The translations under genes and the position numbers were made by a program. 64,000 nt of DNA from Hypericibacter adhaerens (GTDB lineage: Bacteria > Pseudomonadota > Alphaproteobacteria > Dongiales > Dongiaceae), in the NCBI RefSeq assembly GCF_008728835.1, contig NZ_CP042582.1, forward strand, positions 4,204,217 through 4,268,216. Direction: 5' to 3'. The notes below the pieces were generated by a model. The model had not been told where the DNA came from, ran no database searches, and was given only the letters and a program-made list of their open reading frames with translations. Position 1 is the stretch's first letter, and each line of letters opens with the position of its first letter. This document shows positions 40,233 through 51,557 of this stretch, in pieces.

Positions 40233-41309
40233 TCAGGCGGCGCCCAGCGCCGCCGCGATGGCGGCGCGGTCGAGCCCCTTGAGGCCGATCACGACCAGGC
40301 GGCTGTCGCGCGCCTCGCCTGCTTCCCAGGGCCGGTCGTAATGATGCTGCAGACGCGCGCCCACGCCCTGCAGCAGCAGGCGCATCTCCTTGCCGGCGAC
40401 GGCGAGGAAGCCCTTCACCCGCAGGATGTCGTGCCGCTCGATCACCGGTGTCAGCCGCGCCACCAGCTCCTCGGGCGAGCGCAGCACCGGCAGCCTCAGC
40501 GCGAAGCTCTCGAAATCGTCGTGATCGTGGTCCTCGCCCTCGAGCTCGTGATGGGAGGGACGCGCGGCCAGGTCGTCCTCGGCGGCGGCCTCGATGCCCA
40601 GGAGCGTGCGGGCATCGATGCGCCCGAAGCTCGCCGGCAGGATCTTCACCCGGCGCCCCAGCTCGGCATTGATCGCGGCCTCGGCTTGGGCGCGCGAGGA
40701 GGCATCCATCAGGTCGGTCTTGTTCAGCACCACGAGATCGGCGCAGGCGATCTGGTCCTCGAACACCTCGGCCAGCGGGCTCTCGTGATCGAGCGCCGCG
40801 TCGGCCGCGCGCTGGCGCTCGACTGCGACCGGATCCTCGGCGAAGCGGCCCGCCGCCACCGCCGGGCCGTCCACCACCGCGATCACGCCATCGACCGTGA
40901 CACGCGCGCGCACCTCGGGCCAGGCGAAGGCCTTCACCAGCGGCTTCGGCAGCGCCAGCCCCGAGGTCTCGATCACGATATGCTCGGGCGGTTCCGGGCG
41001 GTCGAGCAGCGCCTCGATCGTCGGCAGGAAATCGTCGGCGACCGTGCAGCAGATGCAGCCATTGGCGAGCTCGACGATGTTCTCCTCGGGACAGCCTTCG
41101 ATCGCGCAGGCCTTGAGAATCCCGCCATCGACGCCGAGCTCGCCGAACTCGTTGATCACCAGCGCCAGCCGCCGGCCGTTGGCCGATTTGACGAGATGCT
41201 GGATCAGCGTGGTCTTGCCCGCTCCCAGGAAGCCGGTGACGATGGTGGCCGGGATGCGGCCGCGGGACTTGTGGGCGGCATCCTTGCGGGCGATCAGGTC
41301 GGCGGTCAT
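40233..41309 (-). CDS. cobW: CobW family GTP-binding metallochaperone
   Basis: 358 aa. Walker A GFLGAGKT (26-33), the metal-binding GCICC (84-88) and NKTD guanine motif are visible. A His/Asp/Glu-rich insertion (HHELEGEDHDHDDFE) separates the GTPase from the C-terminal CobW_C domain. COG0523 proteins deliver metal; next to cobN this one probably supplies cobalt to the chelatase. Overlaps cobU by 4 bp. Confidence 0.94.
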   Translation of the reverse strand: MTADLIARKDAAHKSRGRIPATIVTGFLGAGKTTLIQHLVKSANGRRLALVINEFGELGVDGGILKACAIEGCPEENIVELANGCICCTVADDFLPTIEALLDRPEPPEHIVIETSGLALPKPLVKAFAWPEVRARVTVDGVIAVVDGPAVAAGRFAEDPVAVERQRAADAALDHESPLAEVFEDQIACADLVVLNKTDLMDASSRAQAEAAINAELGRRVKILPASFGRIDARTLLGIEAAAEDDLAARPSHHELEGEDHDHDDFESFALRLPVLRSPEELVARLTPVIERHDILRVKGFLAVAGKEMRLLLQGVGARLQHHYDRPWEAGEARDSRLVVIGLKGLDRAAIAAALGAA

Positions 41310-41863
41310 TGCGGCAAATCTCCCTTGAGGGCCAGTGGCAGGCCTGCGGCGACGAACAGCACGCGGTCGGCGATCGCCGCCACCCGCTGGTTGAGGCGGC
41401 CGGCATGGTCGCGAAAAGCGCGCGCCAGCGCGTTGTCCGGCACGATGCCGAGGCCCACCTCGTTCGATACGAGCACGACCGGGCCGCCGGGTCGCCGGAT
41501 CGCGGCGCAAAGTTGCTCGGTCGCGCCGTCGATGTCGCGGTCCTGCGCCATGAGGTTGCTGAGCCAGAGCGTCAGGCAGTCGACCAGCAGCGCGCCCGTC
41601 TCGGCGCGAATCGCGTCCGGCAGCTCGAGCGGCGCTTCGCGCGTGGTCCAGGCGAGCCCGCGCTGCTCGCGATGGCGGCGGATGCGCTCGGCCATCTCCT
41701 CATCGCCGGCCGCGGCGGTGGCGAGATAGAGACGGGGATGGGCATTGGCGAGAAGGGCTTCGGCATAGCGGCTCTTGCCGGAGCGGGCGCCGCCCAGCAC
41801 CAGCGTGCAGCCGGTCAGGTTCAGGTCGGACGACGATGATTGAAGCCCGGCGGAAACGCGCAT
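41306..41863 (-). CDS. cobU: Adenosylcobinamide kinase / guanylyltransferase
   Basis: 185 aa (CobP/CobU). P-loop GGARSGKS (24-31), YLATAAAGDEEM, RIRRHREQR with the guanylylated His, DCLTLWLSNL and VSNEVGLGIVP. It phosphorylates adenosylcobinamide and transfers GMP to it. First gene after the cobalamin riboswitch, so cobU-cobW-cobN-cobO-cobQ should be repressed by cobalamin. Confidence 0.95.
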   Translation of the reverse strand: MRVSAGLQSSSSDLNLTGCTLVLGGARSGKSRYAEALLANAHPRLYLATAAAGDEEMAERIRRHREQRGLAWTTREAPLELPDAIRAETGALLVDCLTLWLSNLMAQDRDIDGATEQLCAAIRRPGGPVVLVSNEVGLGIVPDNALARAFRDHAGRLNQRVAAIADRVLFVAAGLPLALKGDLPQ

Positions 41864-41897
41864 CAGGCCTCCCCTCCCTCCGAGGATCGGTGTTCTG

Positions 41898-42062
41898 GAT
41901 CGATCGAGCAGGTTTCCTGGCTCGCGGGTTGTCGGCCGACGGCGCCTTCCCAGCTCCCGTCATGGGAACCAGTGGCCTGGATCATGCCGTCGGGCCTCGC
42001 CGCTCACAGTTGCGGGGGCAGCGCCGGATTGGACCGGCTTCCCTGGCCTCGACCGGGGCTGA
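41898..42062 (-). promoter_or_regulatory. Cobalamin (AdoCbl) riboswitch
   Basis: Read on the minus strand, 5' to 3': AGGGAAGCCGGT, the B12-box core GCTGCCCCCGCAACTGT, GCCACTG, GGGAAGGC, and the terminal GAGCCAGGAAACCTGC, all in canonical order. It ends about 35 bases before the cobU start, so it probably controls translation or termination ahead of cobU. The exact 5' boundary is estimated. It is the only copy I find in the cobalamin locus. Confidence 0.95.
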
Positions 42063-42187
42063 AGCTACAGGAAGCCGCGCGCCAAGGCCAGCGCCGATGC
42101 CGGCCCGGAACAAGCCGCGGAGGGGCCTTCGATTCTCGCGATTCGCGGGCCCGCCCGCAGGAAATCGAGCGCTGGCCCGTGGAGACA

Positions 42188-42313
42188 ATGACGGCTTCGG
42201 CGGGAAAGTATGAGCCCAAGGCCGGCTTTCCCGCTTTGTTCCCCGAGGCCCGTCTGGGACTGATAGGCACGGCGTGGCAGGCCGACGCGATCGAACACCA
42301 GTCCAAGGACTGA
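42188..42313 (+). CDS. Possible small protein (41 aa) or sRNA between riboswitch and terminator
   Basis: ATG at 42188 preceded by GTGGAG, ending TGA at 42311, 38 bp before a strong plus-strand terminator. The sequence begins MTASAGKYEPKAGFPALFPE and ends EHQSKD; no signal peptide, no family known to me. Third-position GC is moderately high but lower than in the surrounding genes. The terminator shows that something is transcribed rightwards here; it may equally be a non-coding RNA. The 324 bp from cobU to this ATG hold the riboswitch and its promoter region only. Confidence 0.3.
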   Translation: MTASAGKYEPKAGFPALFPEARLGLIGTAWQADAIEHQSKD

Positions 42314-42351
42314 GCGGCTGCCCCCGCAAGATCGCAAGCCTGCCTTGCTCA

Positions 42352-42395
42352 GGCGGGACCGCTGGTCATCCCCCCGCGGTCCCGCCGCTTTTTTT
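42352..42395 (+). terminator. Rho-independent terminator, orphan
   Basis: Perfect 11-bp stem GGCGGGACCGC / GCGGTCCCGCC (42352-42362 and 42376-42386), 13-base loop, then GC and seven T (42389-42395). It reads rightwards, yet no clear plus-strand gene precedes it. Its stem resembles the one at 43379. Confidence 0.85.
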
Positions 42396-42490
42396 CCACC
42401 GTGAGTCGAACCGTTCAGGGGTGCCCGCTTCGATCCGTCGCGGCGAGCGCACGCCCTGTCATGAAGCGTTCGCCATTTGACTGATCGCGG

Positions 42491-42534
42491 GTGAATTGCG
42501 CGACAGCCGGGCTCTCTCGTCTTGAGACCTCGAC
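42491..42534 (+). promoter_or_regulatory. Conserved upstream motif, copy A (small secreted protein 1)
   Basis: GTGAATTG (42491), GACAG (42502), CTTGAG (42521) and CCTCGAC (42528). The same four blocks with the same spacing (11, 19, then 6-7 bases) occur at 42979-43021 before the paralogous gene. The distance to the start codon is 118 bp versus 115 bp. It could contain a promoter or regulator site; which part is -35 or -10 I cannot tell. Confidence 0.55.
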
Positions 42535-42608
42535 GCGGCATTCCACATTGCCTGGCATGGGGGCCACACCGGTGCCGGAAGATCCGGCAACAACCATCGA
42601 GGTTCATC

Positions 42609-42803
42609 ATGATCCGCGTTTCCGCTCTGCTTCCCGCTTTCGTCGTCGTCTTCGGCATGGCCACCGCCGCCTTCGCCGGCACGCCCAACGCCAACATCAC
42701 CACGCCCGACCATGGCAAGGACAAGGCCGCGCAGACCGCCGCCTGCGGCCAGGCGCCGCGCTATCTGGAGCCGTCCTACTGCGGCCCGAACAACGGTCAC
42801 TGA
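42609..42803 (+). CDS. Small secreted two-cysteine protein 1 (64 aa)
   Basis: Signal peptide MIRVSALLPAFVVVFGMATAAFA, then a mature part of about 40 residues with two Cys eleven residues apart (ACGQAPRYLEPSYCGPNN). GAGG lies 6 bases before the ATG. The paralogue at 43094 shares the leader region, the start-codon context, the signal-peptide pattern and a C-x10/11-C-x-P ending. No family recognised. Probably periplasmic or secreted. A terminator follows. Confidence 0.75.
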   Translation: MIRVSALLPAFVVVFGMATAAFAGTPNANITTPDHGKDKAAQTAACGQAPRYLEPSYCGPNNGH

Positions 42804-42874
42804 TTTCGCCGCCTTGCGGGATCGCTCACCCGCGGTTCTCCGCAAGGACGCTACCGGGTTTTCGCTCCATGACG

Positions 42875-42912
42875 GGACCGGCAGGAAACATCCCTGCCGG
42901 TCCTGTTCCTTT
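42875..42912 (+). terminator. Terminator after small secreted protein 1
   Basis: Perfect 11-bp stem GGACCGGCAGG / CCTGCCGGTCC (42875-42885, 42893-42903) with loop AAACATC, followed by the T-rich TGTTCCTTT. The T-tract is interrupted, so termination may be partial. Confidence 0.7.
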
Positions 42913-42978
42913 GCTCCCTTCCCTCCCTCATGAATGCGCGGGAAAATTCTGGCATCGTTGCAACCTCGTGGCCGGGGC

Positions 42979-43021
42979 GTGAATTGGAGGACAGGCTGAG
43001 CGATCGGCCTTGAGCCTCGAC
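42979..43021 (+). promoter_or_regulatory. Conserved upstream motif, copy B (small secreted protein 2)
   Basis: GTGAATTG (42979), GACAG (42990), CTTGAG (43009) and CCTCGAC (43015), spaced as in copy A while the bases between differ. Conservation of the blocks and not of the spacers suggests the motif is functional. Confidence 0.55.
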
Positions 43022-43093
43022 CGGCGCTCGCCATCTGCAAGAGCGAAGCGAACTTTCTTCGCGCTTTCCCCGCGGCGACAATCGAGGTCAATC

Positions 43094-43318
43094 ATGCTCA
43101 GAGCTTCCCTCCTGCTTTCCACCCTCGTCCTGGTTTCGGGCCTGACGGCGACCGGCATCGCCATGGCCGATTCGTCGGGCGCCGGCAAATCGGCGACCAC
43201 CCATGTCGGGGTCACTCTGCCGAATCAGGTCTGCGCCTCCGGCCCGATGCCGGATCCTCAGGATTGCTACCCGCCCAATCGACAGGGCAAGCGGGGCCTG
43301 GAGCATCACGCCGGCTGA
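43094..43318 (+). CDS. Small secreted two-cysteine protein 2 (74 aa)
   Basis: Signal peptide MLRASLLLSTLVLVSGLTATGIAMA, then a mature part with two Cys (VCASGPMPDPQDCYPPN) and a basic tail ending LEHHAG. The ribosome site ATCGAGGTCAATC matches that of protein 1 (ATCGAGGTTCATC), evidence of tandem duplication. No family recognised. Followed by a strong terminator, so transcribed apart from the sigma-factor operon. Confidence 0.75.
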   Translation: MLRASLLLSTLVLVSGLTATGIAMADSSGAGKSATTHVGVTLPNQVCASGPMPDPQDCYPPNRQGKRGLEHHAG

Positions 43319-43378
43319 CGGGCCGGCCGACGGCGCGGGCCCGGAAGCCCACGCCGGATGACAGACCCGACATGATTA

Positions 43379-43413
43379 ACGGGACCGCGGAGTCATCCCG
43401 CGGTCCCGTTTTT
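43379..43413 (+). terminator. Terminator after small secreted protein 2
   Basis: Stem ACGGGACCGCGG / CCGCGGTCCCGT (43379-43390, 43398-43409), then a run of T to 43413. A strong intrinsic terminator with the same GGGACCGC core as the orphan one at 42352. Confidence 0.85.
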
Positions 43414-43674
43414 CGTGCGATTTTGGGTGCTTGCCTAAATATGGCGAAATCTTGTCCGCAAGGCCGCAGGGCCGGCCGGGTTCGCGCGTGAATAGCTGCG
43501 AGTACCGGTGACTGATGGAGAACGTCCTCGGTGGTCCTGACTTCGCGTTTTGTTCCGGATTCCGAAGATCGGCCTTGCGGGTGAGCGACATTATCCGCCC
43601 AATCGCGAACCGTTGCCGCGCCATGGCGAGTTGATCCCTCCCATCGCGACAGCCCAGCCACTTCCGGAGAGTCG
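43414..43674. other. Intergenic leader of the ECF sigma operon, no clear motif
   Basis: 261 bp between the terminator and the sigma-factor start. GTGAATAG at 43488 resembles the first block of the conserved motif upstream of the small secreted genes, but the other blocks are missing. I see no convincing ECF-type -35/-10 pair. GGAGAG lies 3 bases before the sigma start. Confidence 0.4.
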
Positions 43675-44238
43675 ATGGACCCGGCCGAGGACGAGGAATT
43701 GATGCTGGCAAGCGGGCGTGGCGACCGCGCCGCGTTTGCCGAACTGGTACGCCGCCATCTGGGACGCTCGAACGCGATTGCCGTGCGCATGCTCGGCAGC
43801 GCCGCCGAAGCCGAGGAAGTGGTGCAGGAGGCCTTTCTGCGCGTCTGGCAGAAGGCGCCCTCCTGGCGGAAGGATGGCGGCGCACGCGTTTCGACCTGGC
43901 TGGCGCGCGTGATCGTCAATCTCTGCATCGATCGGCGCCGGCGCGCCCGGTCGGTGCCGTTGGAGGAAGTGCCTGAGATGCCCGATACCGCGCCCGCCGC
44001 CGACGATACCTTGGCTTTGGAAGAGCGCCGCCAGCGCGTCGCGGCGGCGCTGGCCGAACTGCCCGACCGGCAACGCGCGGCGGTGGTGTTGAGCTACTAC
44101 GAAGGACTGAGCAATGCGGAAGTCGCCGGCGCGCTGGAGATCAGCGTCGGCGCCGTGGAATCGCTGCTGGTGCGGGCGCGCCGCAGCCTGGCCGGATTGC
44201 TGGCCGATCTGGCCCGGACGGAAGGAGTTGCGACATGA
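43675..44238 (+). CDS. ECF-family RNA polymerase sigma factor
   Basis: 187 aa. Region 2 covers about 10-85 (AFAELVRRHLGR, EAEEVVQEAFLRVWQKAP, STWLARVIVNLCIDRRRR). Region 4 covers about 118-175 (ALAELPDRQRAAVVLSYYEG, NAEVAGALEISVGAVESLLVRAR). No region 1.1 or 3, so an extracytoplasmic-function sigma. Overlaps the anti-sigma-like gene by 4 bp, the usual coupling. With the CnrX-like sensor downstream it suggests a metal- or envelope-responsive regulon. Confidence 0.93.
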   Translation: MDPAEDEELMLASGRGDRAAFAELVRRHLGRSNAIAVRMLGSAAEAEEVVQEAFLRVWQKAPSWRKDGGARVSTWLARVIVNLCIDRRRRARSVPLEEVPEMPDTAPAADDTLALEERRQRVAAALAELPDRQRAAVVLSYYEGLSNAEVAGALEISVGAVESLLVRARRSLAGLLADLARTEGVAT

Positions 44239-44669
44239 ACGTGAAACGTCTCGAGCAAATTCTCGCAGCCTATGGGGCCCGGCCCGAGCGCTGGCCGGCA
44301 ACGGAGCGCGAAGCGGCGGAGGCGCTCCTGGCACGGGATCCCCATGCACAGCGCCTGCTGCGCGAGGCGCGCCGGCTCGACGGGCTCCTGGACAGCCTGC
44401 CGGCGCAGGAGCTGCAGATCGATGCCTCGAGCCTCGCCGCCAGGTTGAGCGAGCGCCCGCAGGAGCCCACGAACCCACGCGCTGCGCGGGCGGCACGGTC
44501 GCGCTGGTGGCACCTGCCGATCATCATGCCGAACCTGGTGGGGCTGGCAGCCGCGGCCGCGGCCGGTTTCTGGATCGGCTGGAGCGATCCAGGCAATGAC
44601 AGCGCGAGCGTTTCCGATCTCGTGCCCTATATCGCCGATCTCGGCGGAGAGGAGAATTCGTTATGGTAG
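44235..44669 (+). CDS. Probable membrane anti-sigma factor (144 aa)
   Basis: A cytoplasmic N-terminal part with KRLEQILAAYGARPERWP and a helical stretch to about residue 55 precedes a single membrane helix at about 97-116 (MPNLVGLAAAAAAGFWIGW) and a short periplasmic tail. There is no HCC zinc motif. The anti-sigma role is inferred from coupling to the ECF gene and topology. Overlaps the sensor gene by 7 bp. Confidence 0.7.
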   Translation: MNVKRLEQILAAYGARPERWPATEREAAEALLARDPHAQRLLREARRLDGLLDSLPAQELQIDASSLAARLSERPQEPTNPRAARAARSRWWHLPIIMPNLVGLAAAAAAGFWIGWSDPGNDSASVSDLVPYIADLGGEENSLW

Positions 44670-45106
44670 ATTTCCTGCGCCGCAATGCGAACTGGATCGC
44701 GATCGCGCTGGTCCTGTCGCTGGGCGCGAATCTCTTCATGGGCGGCATCATCGCCGGCCGTCTCATGCATGGCGGGTTCGGCCATCACCGCATGGAGAAG
44801 ATAGAGGGCGGCGATCAGGTGGGCTGGATCGTCAGGCGCATCGCCGAGGATATGCCGGAAGGACAGCGCCAGGCCTTTCGCGAGGCCATGGACAGCCGCA
44901 AGGATCAGCTCATCGCGCTGGGCAAGCAGATGCACGATGCCCGCGAAGCGGTGAGGGACGCGATCCGGCAGCGGCCGTTCGACCGTGCCGCGTTCGACAG
45001 CGCCGCCGCGTCCCTCGGCACGACCCAGCAGGCCTTCGGCAAGGAATTCTCCGACGCCATCGGGGACGCCATCGAGCTCGCGGCCGGAAAGCCCGCCAGC
45101 AACTAG
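44663..45106 (+). CDS. Periplasmic metal-sensor-like protein (CnrX / Metal_resist type)
   Basis: 147 aa. N-terminal membrane anchor (about 11-32), then a helical periplasmic domain resembling CnrX/ZraP proteins: RRIAEDMPEGQRQAFREAMD and MHDAREAVRDAIRQRPFD. Candidate metal ligands are H36, H41, H42, M44 and H91. In Cupriavidus the CnrX sensor binds Ni/Co and frees sigma CnrH from anti-sigma CnrY; the same three parts are adjacent here in a different order (H-Y-X). Confidence 0.78.
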   Translation: MVDFLRRNANWIAIALVLSLGANLFMGGIIAGRLMHGGFGHHRMEKIEGGDQVGWIVRRIAEDMPEGQRQAFREAMDSRKDQLIALGKQMHDAREAVRDAIRQRPFDRAAFDSAAASLGTTQQAFGKEFSDAIGDAIELAAGKPASN

Positions 45107-45142
45107 GCGGGGCCTCGGCCTTGAGACCCGAGGAGAGAGGAC

Positions 45143-46468
45143 ATGGCCTCGATCACCGGTTTTCAAGCCGTCTCGCGATTTGGACTGGGTGCCCGCGCCG
45201 GCGAGATCGAGCAGGCCAGCGCCGCGCCTTCGGACTGGGTCCTGGCGCAGCTCCAGGACGATGCGACGCCCTCGGGCCTCGCCGACATGCCGACGGGACA
45301 GACCCTCGCCGCGGACCTGCTGAAGGCCTTCAATCGCGGCGCCGCGGCCGTGCAGGAGAACCTGAAAGGTGCGGCGCGCGCGCAATATCTCGGTGAGATC
45401 GGCGCCCGCACCAAGGCCCAGGTCGAAAGCGAAGCGCCCTTCCGGGAACGGCTGGTCGCCTTCTGGTCGAACCATTTCACGGTCTCGATCGCCAAGCCGG
45501 CGCTGATCGGCCTGGCGGGCGCCTTCGAGCGCGAGGCGATCCGTCCCTTTGTCACCGGCAAGTTTGCCGACATGCTCCTGGCGGTGCTGCGGCACCCCGC
45601 CATGCTGCTCTATCTCGACAATGCGCAATCGGTGGGACCGGGCTCGCGCGCCGGCCAGATCGGCCATCGCGGGCTCAACGAGAATCTGGGCCGCGAGGTC
45701 CTCGAGCTGCATACGCTGGGCGTCGATGGCGGCTATCGCCAGGAAGACGTGCAGGCCTTCGCGAAGATGCTGACCGGCTGGTCGATCGGCGGCAAGCGGG
45801 GCAGCACGCCCGGCGCGTTCCATTTCTATCCGCAGATCCATGAGCCCGGTGCCAAGACGCTCCTCGGCAAGTCCTATCCCGAGGCGGGCGAAGCCGAGGT
45901 CGAGCAGGCGGCGGCCGACCTCGCCCATCACCCCGCCACCGCCCATCACCTGGCGCTGAAGTTCGCCCGGCATTTCGTGGCCGACGAGCCGCCCGCGGAT
46001 TTCGTCGACAGGCTTGCCGGGCGTTATCTCGAGACCGACGGCAGCCTCGGCGCCATGGCGACGTTCGTCGTCCACGAGCCCGACGCCTGGCATGCGCCTT
46101 TGACCAAGGTCAAGACGCCGACGGAACTGGTGGTCTCCACCCTCAGGGCGCTGGGTCGCACGCCTGAACCCAAGGCCATCGTCGCGTCGCTCAAGAGCCT
46201 GGGCCAGGTCCCCTTCGCCGCGCCCTCGCCCGCCGGCTGGCCGGACCGCTCCGAAGACTGGATCGGACCCGAAAGCGTGCTGCGCCGCGCGGATTTCGCC
46301 ATGGCCGTGGCGCAGCGGTTGCCGGCGAGCCTGCAGCCCCGCCAGCTTCTCGACGTCACCCTGGGGCCTGCCGCCAGCGAGACGACGCGCCAGGGCGTGG
46401 AACGCGCGCCCTCGCCGGCCGACGGCTTCGCGCTCGTGCTGGCCGCACCGGAGTTTCAACGCCGATGA
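45143..46468 (+). CDS. DUF1800 family protein
   Basis: 441 aa. Family hallmarks are FWSNHFTVS (about 108-116), MLLYLDNAQS, NENLGREVLELHTLG and a C-terminal helical region. Function unknown in the literature I know; it almost always precedes a DUF1501 gene. It starts 36 bp after the sensor gene and overlaps DUF1501 by 4 bp, so it belongs to the sigma-factor operon. Confidence 0.9.
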   Translation: MASITGFQAVSRFGLGARAGEIEQASAAPSDWVLAQLQDDATPSGLADMPTGQTLAADLLKAFNRGAAAVQENLKGAARAQYLGEIGARTKAQVESEAPFRERLVAFWSNHFTVSIAKPALIGLAGAFEREAIRPFVTGKFADMLLAVLRHPAMLLYLDNAQSVGPGSRAGQIGHRGLNENLGREVLELHTLGVDGGYRQEDVQAFAKMLTGWSIGGKRGSTPGAFHFYPQIHEPGAKTLLGKSYPEAGEAEVEQAAADLAHHPATAHHLALKFARHFVADEPPADFVDRLAGRYLETDGSLGAMATFVVHEPDAWHAPLTKVKTPTELVVSTLRALGRTPEPKAIVASLKSLGQVPFAAPSPAGWPDRSEDWIGPESVLRRADFAMAVAQRLPASLQPRQLLDVTLGPAASETTRQGVERAPSPADGFALVLAAPEFQRR

Positions 46469-47727
46469 AGATCGAGCCGCATTCGAGACTGCCGCGACGC
46501 CGCCTGCTCGGGCTGGCCACGGGCCTGGCCGGGTTCGCCGCCTTCGCACCCGTGAAGCTGGCCTTCGCCGATGCGCCGACCGAAAGCCGCTTCGTCCTGG
46601 TGATCCTGCGCGGCGCTCTCGACGGCCTGGCCGCCGTGCCGCCCTATGCGGATCCCGACTACGCCGCACTGCGGGGGCCGCTTGCCTTCGGTGAACCCGG
46701 CGAGCAGGCGGGCGCGCTCGACCTCGACGGCAAGTTCGGACTCAATCCCGCCCTCGCACCGCTGCTGCCGCTATGGCAGGCCCAGGAGCTGACCATCCTG
46801 CATGCGGCGGCGACGCCCTATCGCGACCGATCGCATTTCGACGGGCAGAACCTGCTGGAGAACGGCACGGCAGTACCCAACGGCGCGCAGGATGGCTGGC
46901 TCAACCGGGCGCTCGGCGTGATCGGCGCCACCGATCGGCGGCTCGGGCTGGCGGTCGGAGAGACGGCGCCCCTGGTGCTGGAAGGATCGGTGCCGGTCGC
47001 GTCCTGGGCGCCGGCCGGAATCCTGCCCGAGGCTTCGCCGGATTTCCTGACGCAGCTGGCCTCGCTCTACCGTGCCGATCCGCTCCTGGGGCCGGCGCTC
47101 GCCACGGGCGTCGATTCGCAGCGTCTCAGCGACGAGATCATGAGCGCGTCCCCGGAACCGGCGCCCAACGAGATGGACGCCGGCAAGAACGGCGCGAAGC
47201 TCCGGGCTGCCGATCTGCTGGCACCGGCGGCCGAAGGCGCGGGCAAGCTCCTGGCCGATGCACGGGGCCCGCGGATCGCCGTGCTCGAGGCCGGCGGCTG
47301 GGACACCCATGCCAATCAGGGCCTCATGACCGGCCGGCTGGCGACCGCGCTCGGCGGCCTCGCCAACGGCATGGTCGCGCTGAAGCGCGGGCTCGGCCCC
47401 GCCTGGCAGGAAACCGTCGTGGCGGTCGTGACCGAGTTCGGCCGCACCGCGGCCCCCAACGGCACGGGCGGCACCGATCACGGCACCGGGACCGTCGCGA
47501 TGCTCGCGGGCGGCCGCATCAGGGGCGGGCGCGTCGTCGCCAGCTGGCCGGGCCTGTCGCCGGAGAAGCTCTATCAAGGGCGCGATCTGGCGCCGACGCT
47601 CGACCTGCGGGCCGCTCTCAAGGCCGCCCTCGCGACGCAGTTCGGGATCGATCGGGCGACGCTGGCACGGCGCGTCTTTCCCGACAGCGATCAGGTCGCC
47701 CCGCTCGAAGGCCTCACCGAAGTCTGA
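46465..47727 (+). CDS. DUF1501 family protein, Tat-exported
   Basis: 420 aa. Twin-arginine signal RLPRRRLLGLATGLAGF ending near AFADA (about residue 33). The body has an alkaline-phosphatase/sulfatase-superfamily look: VLVILRGALDGLA, GGWDTHANQG, VVAVVTEFGRTA and GTDHGTGTVAMLAGG. Enzymatic activity is unproven. Last gene of the operon; its stop lies 33 bp from the convergent histidine kinase stop. Confidence 0.9.
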   Translation: MKIEPHSRLPRRRLLGLATGLAGFAAFAPVKLAFADAPTESRFVLVILRGALDGLAAVPPYADPDYAALRGPLAFGEPGEQAGALDLDGKFGLNPALAPLLPLWQAQELTILHAAATPYRDRSHFDGQNLLENGTAVPNGAQDGWLNRALGVIGATDRRLGLAVGETAPLVLEGSVPVASWAPAGILPEASPDFLTQLASLYRADPLLGPALATGVDSQRLSDEIMSASPEPAPNEMDAGKNGAKLRAADLLAPAAEGAGKLLADARGPRIAVLEAGGWDTHANQGLMTGRLATALGGLANGMVALKRGLGPAWQETVVAVVTEFGRTAAPNGTGGTDHGTGTVAMLAGGRIRGGRVVASWPGLSPEKLYQGRDLAPTLDLRAALKAALATQFGIDRATLARRVFPDSDQVAPLEGLTEV

Positions 47728-47759
47728 CGCAAGCTCGAAGGGAGCGGCACGTCTGCGTC

Positions 47760-49193
47760 TCAGCGGCTGGCCAGGCGGCGCAGCTCGCTCTTGCTTTCCC
47801 GCTCCTCGGTCGCCGGGAAAAGCACCCGGACCCGCAGGCCCGGCGCATTGTCGCCGAGCTCCAGCTCGGCGTTGTGCAGATGGGCGATCGCCTTCACCAG
47901 CGGCAGGCCGAGCCCGATGCCCGGCGTCGTCCGGCTTTCGTCGAGCCGCACGAAGCGCTCGAGCACCCGCTCGCGATCCTGCTCCGGGATGCCGGCGCCG
48001 CGATCGGCGACGACGATCTCGGGCTTGCCGTCGGTGCGGCCGACCTTGATGTCGACGCGGCCGCCATCGGCGCCGTATTTGATCGCGTTGTCGAGCAGGT
48101 TGGCGAGCAGCTGGAACAGAAGCTGCCGGTCGCCTTCCACGGTCGCGGCTTCGTCGATCTCCAGATCGAACGTCACCCCGCGCTCGTCGGCGAGCGGCTC
48201 GTAGAGCTCGACCACGTCGTGGGCGAGCGCCCCCAGCTCGACCGGCTGGCGCTCGATGCGCGAGGCGCCGGCCTCGGCGTCGGCGATGGCGAGCAAGGCG
48301 GAAAAAGTGCGCAGAAGCTGGTCGGATTCGCCGATCGCCCGCTCGATCGCCTGCCGGCGCTCCTCCTCGGTCGCATCGTTGAGCGCCAGCTCGAGACCGT
48401 TCTTGAGCCGCGAGAGCGGCGTGCGCAGATCGTGGGCGATATTGTCGGTGACGGTGCGGATGCCCGCCAGCAGCCGCTGGATGTCGTCCAGCATGGCATT
48501 GAGGTTCTGCGACAGCCGGTCGAACTCGTCGCCGCTGCCGGAGACCGCCATGCGGTGCTCGACCTCGCCCGCCCGGATGCGGTCGGTCGAACGGTTGATG
48601 GCCTCGATGCGGCCGAGGAAATTGCGGCTGGCGATGAATCCCACCGCCAGGCCCAGCCCCACCGTGACGACGATGCCCCAGAGGCTGGCATTGATCAGCG
48701 CCGACCGGAGCCGCGCCTCGGTGCTCATGTCCTGCCCGACCAGCAGGTGGTAATTGTCGGGAAGCAGCACATGGATGGCGCGGGCGCCCAGCACCTTGCG
48801 CTGGCCCGCGACGTTGCGCTCGATCGTGAAATCGAGCCAGGGCCCGTCATGCTCGCCGGACGGCGGCCAGTCCGTCAGGTTGCCGGCAAGCGGCGTGTAG
48901 GTCGGACCCGCCAGGAGATAGATGCCATCGCCGACGCGGTCGGGCCGCACCCGCTCGGCGATGACCAGGCTCAAGCCGCTAGGACCGAAGCGGCGAAACT
49001 GCTCGGCCAGCAGGTTCGCCTCGGCCAGCACCGTCTCGCGCCGTTCGCGGGCGAGCATGAACTCCATCGTCCAGAACGTCACGCCGGCCAGCGAAATGGC
49101 CGAGACACTGAACAGCGCGGCGTACGTCAGCGCCAGCCGGAAGGTGCTGGTCGCGAGGAACCTAGGAAGCGGCACGCAGGGAGTATCCCGCAC
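47760..49193 (-). CDS. Sensor histidine kinase
   Basis: 477 aa. Membrane helices at about 18-40 and 168-188 flank a periplasmic sensor domain; then HAMP (190-245), H-box with H254 (NIAHDLRTPLSRL), N-box NLLDNAIKYG, G1 DRGAGIPEQD and GIGLGLPLVKAI. The start is uncertain: GTG at 49193, overlapping the regulator by 32 bp, or GTG at 49175. Phosphorylates the adjacent regulator. Resembles the degP-ragA-ragB arrangement of Bradyrhizobium. Confidence 0.92.
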   Translation of the reverse strand: MRDTPCVPLPRFLATSTFRLALTYAALFSVSAISLAGVTFWTMEFMLARERRETVLAEANLLAEQFRRFGPSGLSLVIAERVRPDRVGDGIYLLAGPTYTPLAGNLTDWPPSGEHDGPWLDFTIERNVAGQRKVLGARAIHVLLPDNYHLLVGQDMSTEARLRSALINASLWGIVVTVGLGLAVGFIASRNFLGRIEAINRSTDRIRAGEVEHRMAVSGSGDEFDRLSQNLNAMLDDIQRLLAGIRTVTDNIAHDLRTPLSRLKNGLELALNDATEEERRQAIERAIGESDQLLRTFSALLAIADAEAGASRIERQPVELGALAHDVVELYEPLADERGVTFDLEIDEAATVEGDRQLLFQLLANLLDNAIKYGADGGRVDIKVGRTDGKPEIVVADRGAGIPEQDRERVLERFVRLDESRTTPGIGLGLPLVKAIAHLHNAELELGDNAPGLRVRVLFPATEERESKSELRRLASR

Positions 49194-49839
49194 CCCGTAC
49201 GGTGTGCAGCAGCGGCCGGTCGAACCCCTTGTCGATCTTCTGGCGCAAACGGCTCACATGCACATCGATGACATTGGTCTGCGGGTCGAAATGATAGTCC
49301 CAAACGTTCTCGAGCAACATGGTGCGCGTGACGACCTGGTCGGCATGGCGCATCAGGCATTCCAGGAGCTTGAACTCGCGCGGCTGCAGGTCGATCTCGC
49401 GGCCCGCCCGTTTGACCGAGCGCTTGAGCAGGTCCATCTCCAGGTCGGCCACCTTGAGCAGGGTCTCGGCCGTCGAGGCCTTGCGCCGGCGCCCCAGCGC
49501 CTCGAGCCGGGCCAGGAGCTCGGAGAAGGCGAAGGGCTTGGTCAGGTAGTCGTCGCCCCCGGCCTTGAGCCCCTTGACCCGGTCGTCGACCTTGTCCAAG
49601 GCGCTCAGGATCAGGACCGGCGTCTCCACGTCGGCCGCCCGCATCGCCTGCAGGACCGAAAGCCCATCCAGACCGGGAAGCATGCGGTCCAGCACGACCG
49701 CGTCGTAATCGCCGCTCGTGGCCAGATAGAGCCCGTCGCGACCGGTGGCGGCATGATCCACGACGTGTCCGCTCTCGGACAACGCCTTGGAGATGTAGGC
49801 GGCGGCCGCCTGATCGTCCTCGACGAGGAGAATGCGCAT
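49162..49839 (-). CDS. OmpR-family response regulator
   Basis: 225 aa from the ATG at 49839; the open frame runs further upstream into low-similarity Pro/Ala-rich sequence, so I reject the longer start. Receiver domain with phosphoacceptor D51 (VVLDRMLPG) and TKPFAFSELLARL; C-terminal winged helix with PREFKLLECLM and NVIDVHVSRLRQKID. Controls transcription, probably of envelope-stress genes including the degP beside it (inference). Confidence 0.93.
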   Translation of the reverse strand: MRILLVEDDQAAAAYISKALSESGHVVDHAATGRDGLYLATSGDYDAVVLDRMLPGLDGLSVLQAMRAADVETPVLILSALDKVDDRVKGLKAGGDDYLTKPFAFSELLARLEALGRRRKASTAETLLKVADLEMDLLKRSVKRAGREIDLQPREFKLLECLMRHADQVVTRTMLLENVWDYHFDPQTNVIDVHVSRLRQKIDKGFDRPLLHTVRGAGYSLRAAS

Positions 49840-49978
49840 GACCAGTTGGGAGTCTATCAACCGGGCCAAGGCTCCGGAAGGGGTGGGGTAGGGTGGCGTG
49901 ACAGCGGGCGCCGTCGGATCGGCAGGAGCGGACGCCCGGTTCTCGGACAGTCGGTTTTCGGATTCCGGGGCCCCGTTA

Positions 49979-50006
49979 CGGGCCGGGGCGGCATCGCCCC
50001 GGCCCG
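49979..50006. other. Perfect 12-bp hairpin between degP and the regulator gene
   Basis: Arms CGGGCCGGGGCG and CGCCCCGGCCCG with a GCAT loop. No T-run on either strand, so not a standard intrinsic terminator. In the degP transcript it would be a very stable 3' structure and could separate degP from regulator expression. Confidence 0.5.
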
Positions 50007-50060
50007 CGAGGGAGTCCATCGGATCCGGCTTGAAGCCAGATACCGTCATGATGACCTCGT

Positions 50061-51557
50061 TTATGCGTCGGACAGGTCGAGTGCCAGGAACAGATCGTCG
50101 CCCTGGCGGCTGATCAGCATCAGAACGGACTTCTTCTGGTCCTTGCGGGCCTGGTCGACCAGGCGCTCCACGTCGGCCGGGTTCTTGACGCTGCTATCGG
50201 CAACCCGCTCGATGACGTCGCCGGGCCTGAGGCCCTGTTCCGCCGCCTTGCCGTCCTGATCGACATCGACGATCAGGGCGCCTTCGACGGATTCGGGGAC
50301 ATCGAACTGGGCGCGGGCATCGCGATCGAGGGCCGCCAGCCGCAGGCCGAGCAGCTTCTCGGTCGCGGCCGGGGCCGGGTTGTTGTCCTGCGTGTCGGCG
50401 GAAGCGACCCGCTCCTCGCTCGGCAGGCGGCCGATGGTGACATCGATCGTCTGGCGCTCATGGTTGCGCAGGATATCGACCTTGGCCGTGCTGTTCGCCG
50501 CGGCGGCGGCGACCAGACGCGGCAGGTCCCGCATCTTGTCGATCGCCTGGCCGTTGAAGCCCAGCACCACGTCGCCGGCCTGGAGCTTGCCGTTGGCCGG
50601 GCCCTTGGCGTCCACGGCCGCGACCAGGGCGCCCTTGGGCTCGTCGAGGCCCATGGCCTGGGCCAGTTCCGGCGTCACTTCCTGGATGCGGACGCCGAGC
50701 CAGCCGCGCTCGACCTTGCCATGCTCCTTGAGCTCGGCAATGACGGGCTTGGCGAGGTTCGACGGGATCGCGAAGCCGATGCCGACGCTGCCGCCGTTGG
50801 GCGTGGCGATGGCGGCGTTGATGCCGACCACCTGCCCGTCCATGTTGAAGGTCGGACCGCCCGAATTGCCCTGGTTGATCGAGGCGTCGATCTGCAGGAA
50901 ATCGTCGAACGGACCCGAGCGGATATCGCGGCCGCGCGCCGAGATGATGCCGGTCGTGACCGTGCCGCCGAGGCCGAAGGGATTGCCGACCGCCAGCACC
51001 CAGTCGCCGACGCGGGTCTGGTCGGAATCGCCCCAGGACACATAGGGCAGCGGCTTCTTGCTCTCGACCTTGAGCAGCGCCAGGTCGGTCTTCTCGTCGG
51101 TGCCGATCAGCTTGGCTTCGAGCTGCAGGCCGTCGGAGGTCGTGACCTTGATGTCGTTGGCGCTGTCGATGACGTGGTTGTTCGTGACGATGTAGCCCGA
51201 GGGATCGATGATGAAGCCCGAGCCCAGCGCGGTCGCCTTATGCTTGCCGCTATGGTCCTGCTGCTGGGGACCGTTGCGGAACTGCTTGAAGAACTCCTCG
51301 AACGGCGAACCGGGCGGGAAATGGAACGGCATCTCGTCCGGCATGTCGGCGCTCTGGTCGGCGACATCCTCGACCGCGGCGATATTGACGACCGCGGGCG
51401 TCACCTTCGCCGCGAGATCGGCGAAGCTCGATGGCGCTTCGGCATGGGCGATGCCGGACTGCAGCGCGAGCGCCGCGATGCCCGTCGCCAGCATGGCGTT
51501 CCGCAACGCCGGCAGCGCAAAGGGCGCACGGACGTAACGGATCAGGTTTATACTCAT
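50061..51557 (-). CDS. degP: Do-family periplasmic serine protease (DegP/HtrA)
   Basis: 498 aa. Signal peptide ends near ALQSGIAHAEA (residue 39). Catalytic triad H128 (NNHVIDS), D158 (TDLALLKV) and S232 (NQGNSGGP). Two PDZ domains follow (about 265-355 and 390-490). It degrades or refolds misfolded envelope proteins. AGGAGG precedes the ATG. Divergent from the MFS gene over 251 bp; a small dyad CGCGGAAATCCGCG lies there. Confidence 0.96.
   Translation of the reverse strand: MSINLIRYVRAPFALPALRNAMLATGIAALALQSGIAHAEAPSSFADLAAKVTPAVVNIAAVEDVADQSADMPDEMPFHFPPGSPFEEFFKQFRNGPQQQDHSGKHKATALGSGFIIDPSGYIVTNNHVIDSANDIKVTTSDGLQLEAKLIGTDEKTDLALLKVESKKPLPYVSWGDSDQTRVGDWVLAVGNPFGLGGTVTTGIISARGRDIRSGPFDDFLQIDASINQGNSGGPTFNMDGQVVGINAAIATPNGGSVGIGFAIPSNLAKPVIAELKEHGKVERGWLGVRIQEVTPELAQAMGLDEPKGALVAAVDAKGPANGKLQAGDVVLGFNGQAIDKMRDLPRLVAAAAANSTAKVDILRNHERQTIDVTIGRLPSEERVASADTQDNNPAPAATEKLLGLRLAALDRDARAQFDVPESVEGALIVDVDQDGKAAEQGLRPGDVIERVADSSVKNPADVERLVDQARKDQKKSVLMLISRQGDDLFLALDLSDA

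Follow-up and report, generated by a model that had tools for sequence, protein, structure and literature searches.

Two described systems lie closest to the locus analysed here. In Rhodobacter, the small RNAs CcsR1–4 are co-transcribed with a small-protein gene under the control of RpoH sigma factors, and in Rhodobacter sphaeroides CcaF1 is an RNA-binding small protein, as set out in the portion of PMC8307010 available to us. The second system is the CaBP–SigV pair of Caulobacter, in which the gene for the small periplasmic protein CaBP adjoins that of an ECF sigma factor; CaBP is an EF-hand protein according to the available portion of PMC13171946. The locus described here lies in a 64,000-nucleotide stretch ('the window') of the 5.87-Mb single-contig genome of Hypericibacter adhaerens. 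Between a divergent cobU gene (41306–41863, minus strand), upstream of which lies a cobalamin riboswitch (41890–42087, minus strand; Rfam 85.8 bits), and an ECF sigma factor gene (43675–44238, plus strand) are two small plus-strand genes, gene 1 and gene 2. We regard this array as genuine: a family of small two-cysteine peptides, duplicated and specific to this lineage. The reading that we favour for its role, with a confidence somewhat short of even, is that small exported peptides, restricted to the lineage and duplicated as whole units, serve as accessories to an envelope-stress region.

The repeated unit, present twice in the window, runs from an upstream block through a gene to a hairpin with a GGGACC or GGACC core. 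In unit 1, the block GTGAATTGCGCGACAG (42491–42506) is followed by a putative promoter that in an RpoH-like reading is CTTGAG-N15-TCCACAT (42521–42548), a ribosome-binding context (42596–42603), gene 1 (42609–42803) and a GGACC-core hairpin with a weak T tail, a probable terminator (42875–42903). Unit 2 has the block GTGAATTGGAGGACAG (42979–42994), the putative promoter CTTGAG-N15-GCCATCT in the same reading (43009–43036; 10 of 13 points), a ribosome-binding context (43081–43088), gene 2 (43094–43318) and the hairpin GGGACCGCGG with a T tail, again a probable terminator (43378–43410); all of these elements are on the plus strand. Gene 1 encodes a 64-residue protein (P0001) with a signal-peptide-like start, a variable linker and a C-x11-C-G-P tail, and gene 2 a 74-residue protein (P0002) with a signal-peptide-like start, a linker and the tail C-x10-C-Y-P-P-N-R-Q-G-K-R. 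The two genes therefore share the features that an earlier note on this DNA had listed, namely a signal-peptide pattern, the identical ribosome-site context ATCGAGGT and a C-x10/11-C-x-P C-terminus; the ribosome-site context is common, with variants, to all five copies described below. The signal peptide, with its AxA-type cleavage site, passes a composition and position filter. The peptides are probably exported to the periplasm, and, because each carries two cysteines behind a signal peptide, we infer a disulfide.

One strict filter for small secreted-like ORFs passes two in the window, gene 1 and gene 2, each with two cysteines, and three in a 400-kb sample of this genome, one of which has two cysteines; by these counts, a side-by-side pair of such ORFs is above chance. 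Tandem Repeats Finder reported no array at the gene 1/gene 2 locus. The one other genome of the genus in our collection (G001) carries three tandem copies, a, b and c, at the same locus (L006 1199–1417, 1625–1837 and 1990–2217); the sigma gene follows them, and before them comes sequence alignable with the cobU riboswitch region. Counting both genomes there are five copies, all at one locus flanked by the region upstream of cobU and by the ECF sigma gene. Gene 2 corresponds to copy c, with 43% identity and an identical PDPQDCYPPNRQGKR. The mature part of gene 1 resembles copy b, but whole-region alignment pairs gene 1 with copy a in the 5' region, a mixed pattern that makes exchange between array copies likely. 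Copy a is divergent, with a C-x6-C spacing and without the C-x-P tail. An open frame beginning at 42188 has no ATG at that place in G001, and the frame is not carried over from that point.

A BLASTP comparison of the gene 1 and gene 2 proteins gives no alignment at E ≤ 100; we consider the two genes kin on the evidence of their signal peptides, their cis elements and the further copies in G001. The signal peptides of gene 1 and gene 2 align with a score of 41, compared with 20.8 ± 5.6 for a null made from 38 unrelated signal-peptide-like starts in the loci examined, partly loci of sigma relatives in named genomes (the best 80 of 258), and 1.3% of the 76 null comparisons reach 41. The signal peptides therefore do align better than unrelated ones, the check that had been proposed for them. 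All 10 copy pairs exceed this null, with 0 to 1.3% of null comparisons reaching their scores, and the full-length alignment scores of all 10 lie above all 500 shuffles. When the mature part is aligned alone, the gene 1/copy b and gene 2/copy c pairs are clear against shuffles, gene 1/copy c (p 0.024) and gene 2/copy b (p 0.040) are marginal, and the remaining six of the 10, gene 1/gene 2 among them (p 0.11), are not significant. The proposal of a tandem duplication that retained its control is upheld by the five copies in two genomes, by an upstream block present in four of the five and by signal peptides that outscore the 38 unrelated starts.

The family is restricted to one genus among the genomes searched. 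The order search comprised 17 genomes, all of one family (two of the genus and 15 others). At E 0.01 the five-copy profile matched three of these, the genus pair along its whole length and G016 in the signal peptide only; this last match (E 0.008, positions 1–26) was rejected. P0002 alone matched four of the 17, two of them outside the genus, and both outside matches were set aside: that in G004 (E 0.00135) falls within a 225-residue open frame that has no small-gene context, and that in G006 (E 0.0094) is a small secreted-like protein without cysteines. In the class search at E 0.001, eight of 385 genomes gave matches, the window's own being strong (1.6e-30) and those of the other seven weak (3.8e-5 to 9.4e-4, at eight places); at most 16 first-look candidates were scored per genome, and misses are possible. 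Two of the seven are look-alikes with no Pfam match at E 0.1, one (G363, L045) having C-x12-C in an otherwise unlike protein and the other (G076, L046) having its own tandem set with C-x21-C. The other five, weighed on their E-values (3.4e-4 to 9.4e-4) and the range aligned, were not convincing. Homologues with conserved cysteines, whose occurrence in other genomes the earlier note had raised, were found in G001 and in no genome beyond that single genus relative. As a separate observation, L046 at about 700–2200 holds tandem tiny secreted-like two-cysteine proteins in a genome of 1.7 Mb that belongs to the same class, with no visible kinship to the array; one stretch of this locus reads N.

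Searches of other collections agree in their outcome. Genome contigs and viral contigs, excluding own or very near records, gave no valid match to gene 2 or copy c, phages no counting match to P0002, plasmids no counting match to P0001 or P0002, and the PDB no counting match to the five-copy profile. Pfam and NCBIfam gave no match for P0001 or P0002 at E 0.1, and no Pfam family matches the array peptides above its cut-off. The AlphaFold2 model of P0002 alone is uninformative (mean pLDDT 58.2), and within the literature searched no paper on the present array was found when we looked for such arrays or peptides. In genus g2 (G002), a gene resembling cobU in sequence and the sigma gene are neighbours without an array. 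The sigma system can thus do without one, and the arrangement suggests that the array was gained in the present genus or lost in g2. A cobalamin riboswitch sequence is visible in G001 and G002 by eye or alignment.

The upstream region contains a conserved two-block element. The arrangement GTGAATTG-N3-GACAG-N14-CTTGAG precedes both genes at equal spacing, and as an exact two-block pattern with gaps of 11–15 nt it occurs at only two places in 5.87 Mb, both of them here; the first block with one mismatch occurs at one further place. In an ungapped alignment of the regions upstream of gene 1, gene 2, copy b and copy c, anchored on CTTGMG, GTGAAWTGNNNGACAG-N14-CTTGAG is conserved in these four of the five copies and its flanks are not. 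Across the four copies from two genomes, 12 of 16 columns are identical in GTGAAWTGNNNGACAG and 8 of 12 around CTTGAG, with the blocks always 14 nt apart, compared with 1 of 39, 1 of 11, 0 of 11 and 1 of 21 columns in the flanks. Copy a has CTTGCG and lacks the upstream block, and in all five copies CTTG stands 83–88 nt from the ATG. The fixed-spacing motif described earlier therefore holds for GTGAATTG, GACAG and CTTGAG; the position of its fourth element, CCTCGAC, differs by one base from one gene to the other, and copies b and c do not retain it.

Since no exact site exists beyond the two of the array, the upstream block is private to the array and not a regulon-wide site. A 400-kb sample of the genome contains neither the first block nor CTTGMG-N15-NCMAYMT. 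The idea of an upstream-block regulon was rejected, there being no third exact site and, at up to three mismatches, eight sites in the window with 14.5 expected. A structured 5' leader was also considered and dropped, as the consensus reaches only -2.94 kcal/mol. Further downstream, at 43415–43520 on the plus strand, the short islands CCTAAATA.GGCGAAATCTTGTCCG and CGTGAATAG upstream of the sigma gene are conserved relative to G001 and are possible regulatory sites.

The second block and the sequence that follows it suggest a putative RpoH-type promoter at the units. The array sequence CTTGMG-N15-nCMAYMT resembles the Sinorhizobium meliloti RpoH promoters in the available portion of PMC4843759, where the consensus is CTTGAA-N15/16-CCTATAT for RpoH1 and CTTGCC-N15/16-CCTATCT for RpoH2. 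Scored against this S. meliloti consensus over 130 nt upstream, the best of 13 possible points are 9 for gene 1, 10 for gene 2 and 9, 10 and 11 for copies a, b and c; in random 130-nt segments, 9 is reached in 34%, 10 in 6% and 11 in 1%, and the best score for gene 1 falls at another site than CTTGAG-N15-TCCACAT. As a positive control, six of 17 heat-shock loci from the two genomes reach 12–13 within 400 nt upstream (3 groES and 3 of 14 hsp20), scores attained by 0.05% of random 400-nt segments. The pattern CTTGAG-N15/17-CCAYMT occurs at 12 places in the genome, two here and 10 elsewhere, and its reversed control at three. A simple promoter scan found none. Because conservation is higher in the two blocks than in the supposed -10, in which three of nine columns are identical in the four copies, the units may instead use another promoter type that has the two blocks as its elements.

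The 3' ends of the units are marked by strong hairpins. Three of these share a GGGACC/GGACC core and carry CATC in the loop; their positions are 42352–42386 (z -5.1), 42875–42903 (z -6.2, -30.3 kcal/mol) and 43378–43410 (z -7.0). Among 60 perfect hairpins of the window with a stem of at least 8, three have a GGGAC core or at least five T in the next eight bases, exactly those of the array region; in the 400-kb sample, none of 108 hairpins with a stem of at least 9 has the core and seven have a T-rich tail. A simple terminator scan gave one site, with 1.6 expected. The earlier note had each gene ending in a terminator, which fits the hairpin at 43378 after gene 2; the one that follows gene 1 is at 42875, which the note did not list, and the one it gave at 42352 precedes gene 1. 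That hairpin, GGGACCGC, closes a conserved plus-strand segment of about 165 nt (42228–42393). The segment and its C-rich-loop hairpin are well conserved in G001, and its ORF has no conserved start codon. It ends neither gene, and may be the end of an upstream transcript, a decayed unit or a small RNA. No Rfam family matches the segment above its cut-off, and a second cobalamin riboswitch considered at 42228–42340 was rejected, as Rfam gives only the minus-strand one at 41890–42087.

These hairpins raise an RNA-centred explanation, in which the key product of each unit would be a hairpin RNA, a small RNA derived from the 3' UTR by analogy with CcsR1–4, and the peptides would be secondary. The shared stem core and CATC loops, the absence of the core from the 400-kb sample and a segment that keeps its hairpin without a start codon all fit such an RNA, and CcsR1 (RF02791) is the sole Rfam match in the segment at E ≤ 1. 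That match, at 16.7 bits (E 0.73), nevertheless lies far below the gathering cut-off of 65.3 and does not place the segment in the CcsR1 family. G001 also has three hairpins of similar stem, but their loops do not keep CATC exactly, and copy b, read by eye, has no hairpin after the gene. The loop segment of gene 2 is, moreover, constrained as protein (see below), and we consider the RNA-centred explanation improbable relative to one in which the exported peptide is the product that matters.

Selection on the product, which had been suggested from the duplication, is seen in one gene and not in the other. For gene 2 and copy c as a whole, dN is 0.53 and dS 1.03. Within residues 47–67, which include the cysteine loop, dN falls to 0.22 with dS 0.79 (dN/dS about 0.28), although the counts are small (9.2 changes over 49.0 non-synonymous sites and 6.8 over 14.0 synonymous sites); in the linker, dN is 1.01 and dS 1.30. 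Constraint thus acts on the C-terminal loop segment of gene 2 and its counterpart. For gene 1 and copy b, dN is 0.61 and dS 0.58, again on small counts, and no constraint is seen in this comparison.

The near-equality of dN and dS for gene 1 is what would be expected of young orphan genes, which might be expressed and exported as units while their peptides have no important function yet, their similarity reflecting recent ancestry. The presence of the family in two genomes only, the divergence of copy a, the difference in copy number (two and three) and the absence of the array from G002 point the same way. The identity of PDPQDCYPPNRQGKR in gene 2 and copy c, with the low dN/dS of that segment, and the conservation of the upstream block far above its flanks argue against it. 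We judge the orphan-gene explanation unlikely on balance, while giving it appreciable weight, and continue to prefer peptides with a role in the envelope.

This preference draws on the neighbourhood of the array. Downstream of the array the ECF sigma gene is followed, in order, by an anti-sigma-like gene (44235–44669, plus strand; NCBIfam match of 26.1 bits, below the cut-off of 100), a Metal_resist gene (PF13801; 44663–45106, plus strand), and DUF1800 and DUF1501 genes. Beyond these, on the opposite strand, are genes for a histidine kinase, a response regulator (49162–50049) and an HtrA-type trypsin/PDZ protease (47760–51557 for the three, minus strand); together with the sigma operon, they form an envelope-stress neighbourhood. 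Because the array adjoins the sigma/anti-sigma-like/Metal_resist operon and is near the two-component pair and the HtrA-type protease, we favour envelope peptides of a lineage-specific response. Elsewhere in the family, other genera have related ECF sigma genes with 45–53% identity. Upstream of these (L014–L024) are encoded proteins that by eye appear EF-hand-like and secreted, an arrangement that recalls the Caulobacter CaBP–SigV pair as described in the available portion of PMC13171946.

Divergence between the two species is uneven across this region. The array proteins have 34–43% identity, compared with 96% for the sigma factor, 69% for the anti-sigma-like protein and 62% for Metal_resist. 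Such rapid change, together with changes in copy number, could indicate antagonistic, bacteriocin-like peptides, fast-changing disulfide-loop products released against competitors. However, the periplasmic neighbours diverge fast too (the 62–69% proteins that follow the sigma gene), and a Pfam scan of the neighbourhood, covering the twelve proteins of 40233–51557, found an immunity or dedicated export gene in none of them. A bacteriocin-like function is therefore, in our estimate, quite improbable, and the envelope-accessory reading is retained.

In the model that we favour, a whole transcription unit would have been tandemly duplicated to give the lineage-restricted family. Each unit would bring its own promoter region and private two-block control element, and most copies also their own GGGACC-type hairpin terminator. 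The signal peptide would take the peptide across the inner membrane, and the two cysteines would close a C-terminal loop of 10–11 residues, the presumed working part, tethered by the variable linker. The peptide would then act in the envelope, most likely in an accessory role to the envelope-stress region next to the array; both its induction by stress and its envelope role are inferred. A more elaborate scheme would have the units make both an exported-peptide mRNA and a terminator small RNA, with the peptide read by the Metal_resist/anti-sigma-like system and the array tuning the ECF sigma factor species-specifically; we think this very improbable. Under the envelope model, the peptides would add to a conserved sigma-factor locus a layer of stress response specific to this lineage. 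The array is in any case a clean example of ongoing change in a small gene family inside a single bacterial genus, with whole control units duplicated together with the gene, and its conserved upstream block offers a direct handle for finding the regulator.

Compared with known families and systems, the array shows partial resemblances. DUF6520 (PF20130) matches copy b and gene 1 weakly over signal peptide and linker, at 12.6–16.7 bits and below its gathering cut-off of 25.4, and New_glue (PF21827) likewise matches copy b over these two parts at 14.2 bits, compared with a cut-off of 31; the cysteine loop of the array lies mostly outside both matches. As far as the available portion of PMC8307010 describes it, the CcaF1–CcsR1–4 system differs in having an RNA-binding protein, whereas here each hairpin goes with a signal-peptide-like ORF and an upstream element. 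The two are alike in combining repeated hairpins with a small ORF, under RpoH control there and possibly under an RpoH-type promoter here. CaBP is an EF-hand protein in the available portion of its source, whereas the array peptides match no Pfam family above its cut-off; what the Caulobacter CaBP–SigV pair shares with the present locus is that an ECF sigma gene has as its neighbour a gene for a small secreted product.
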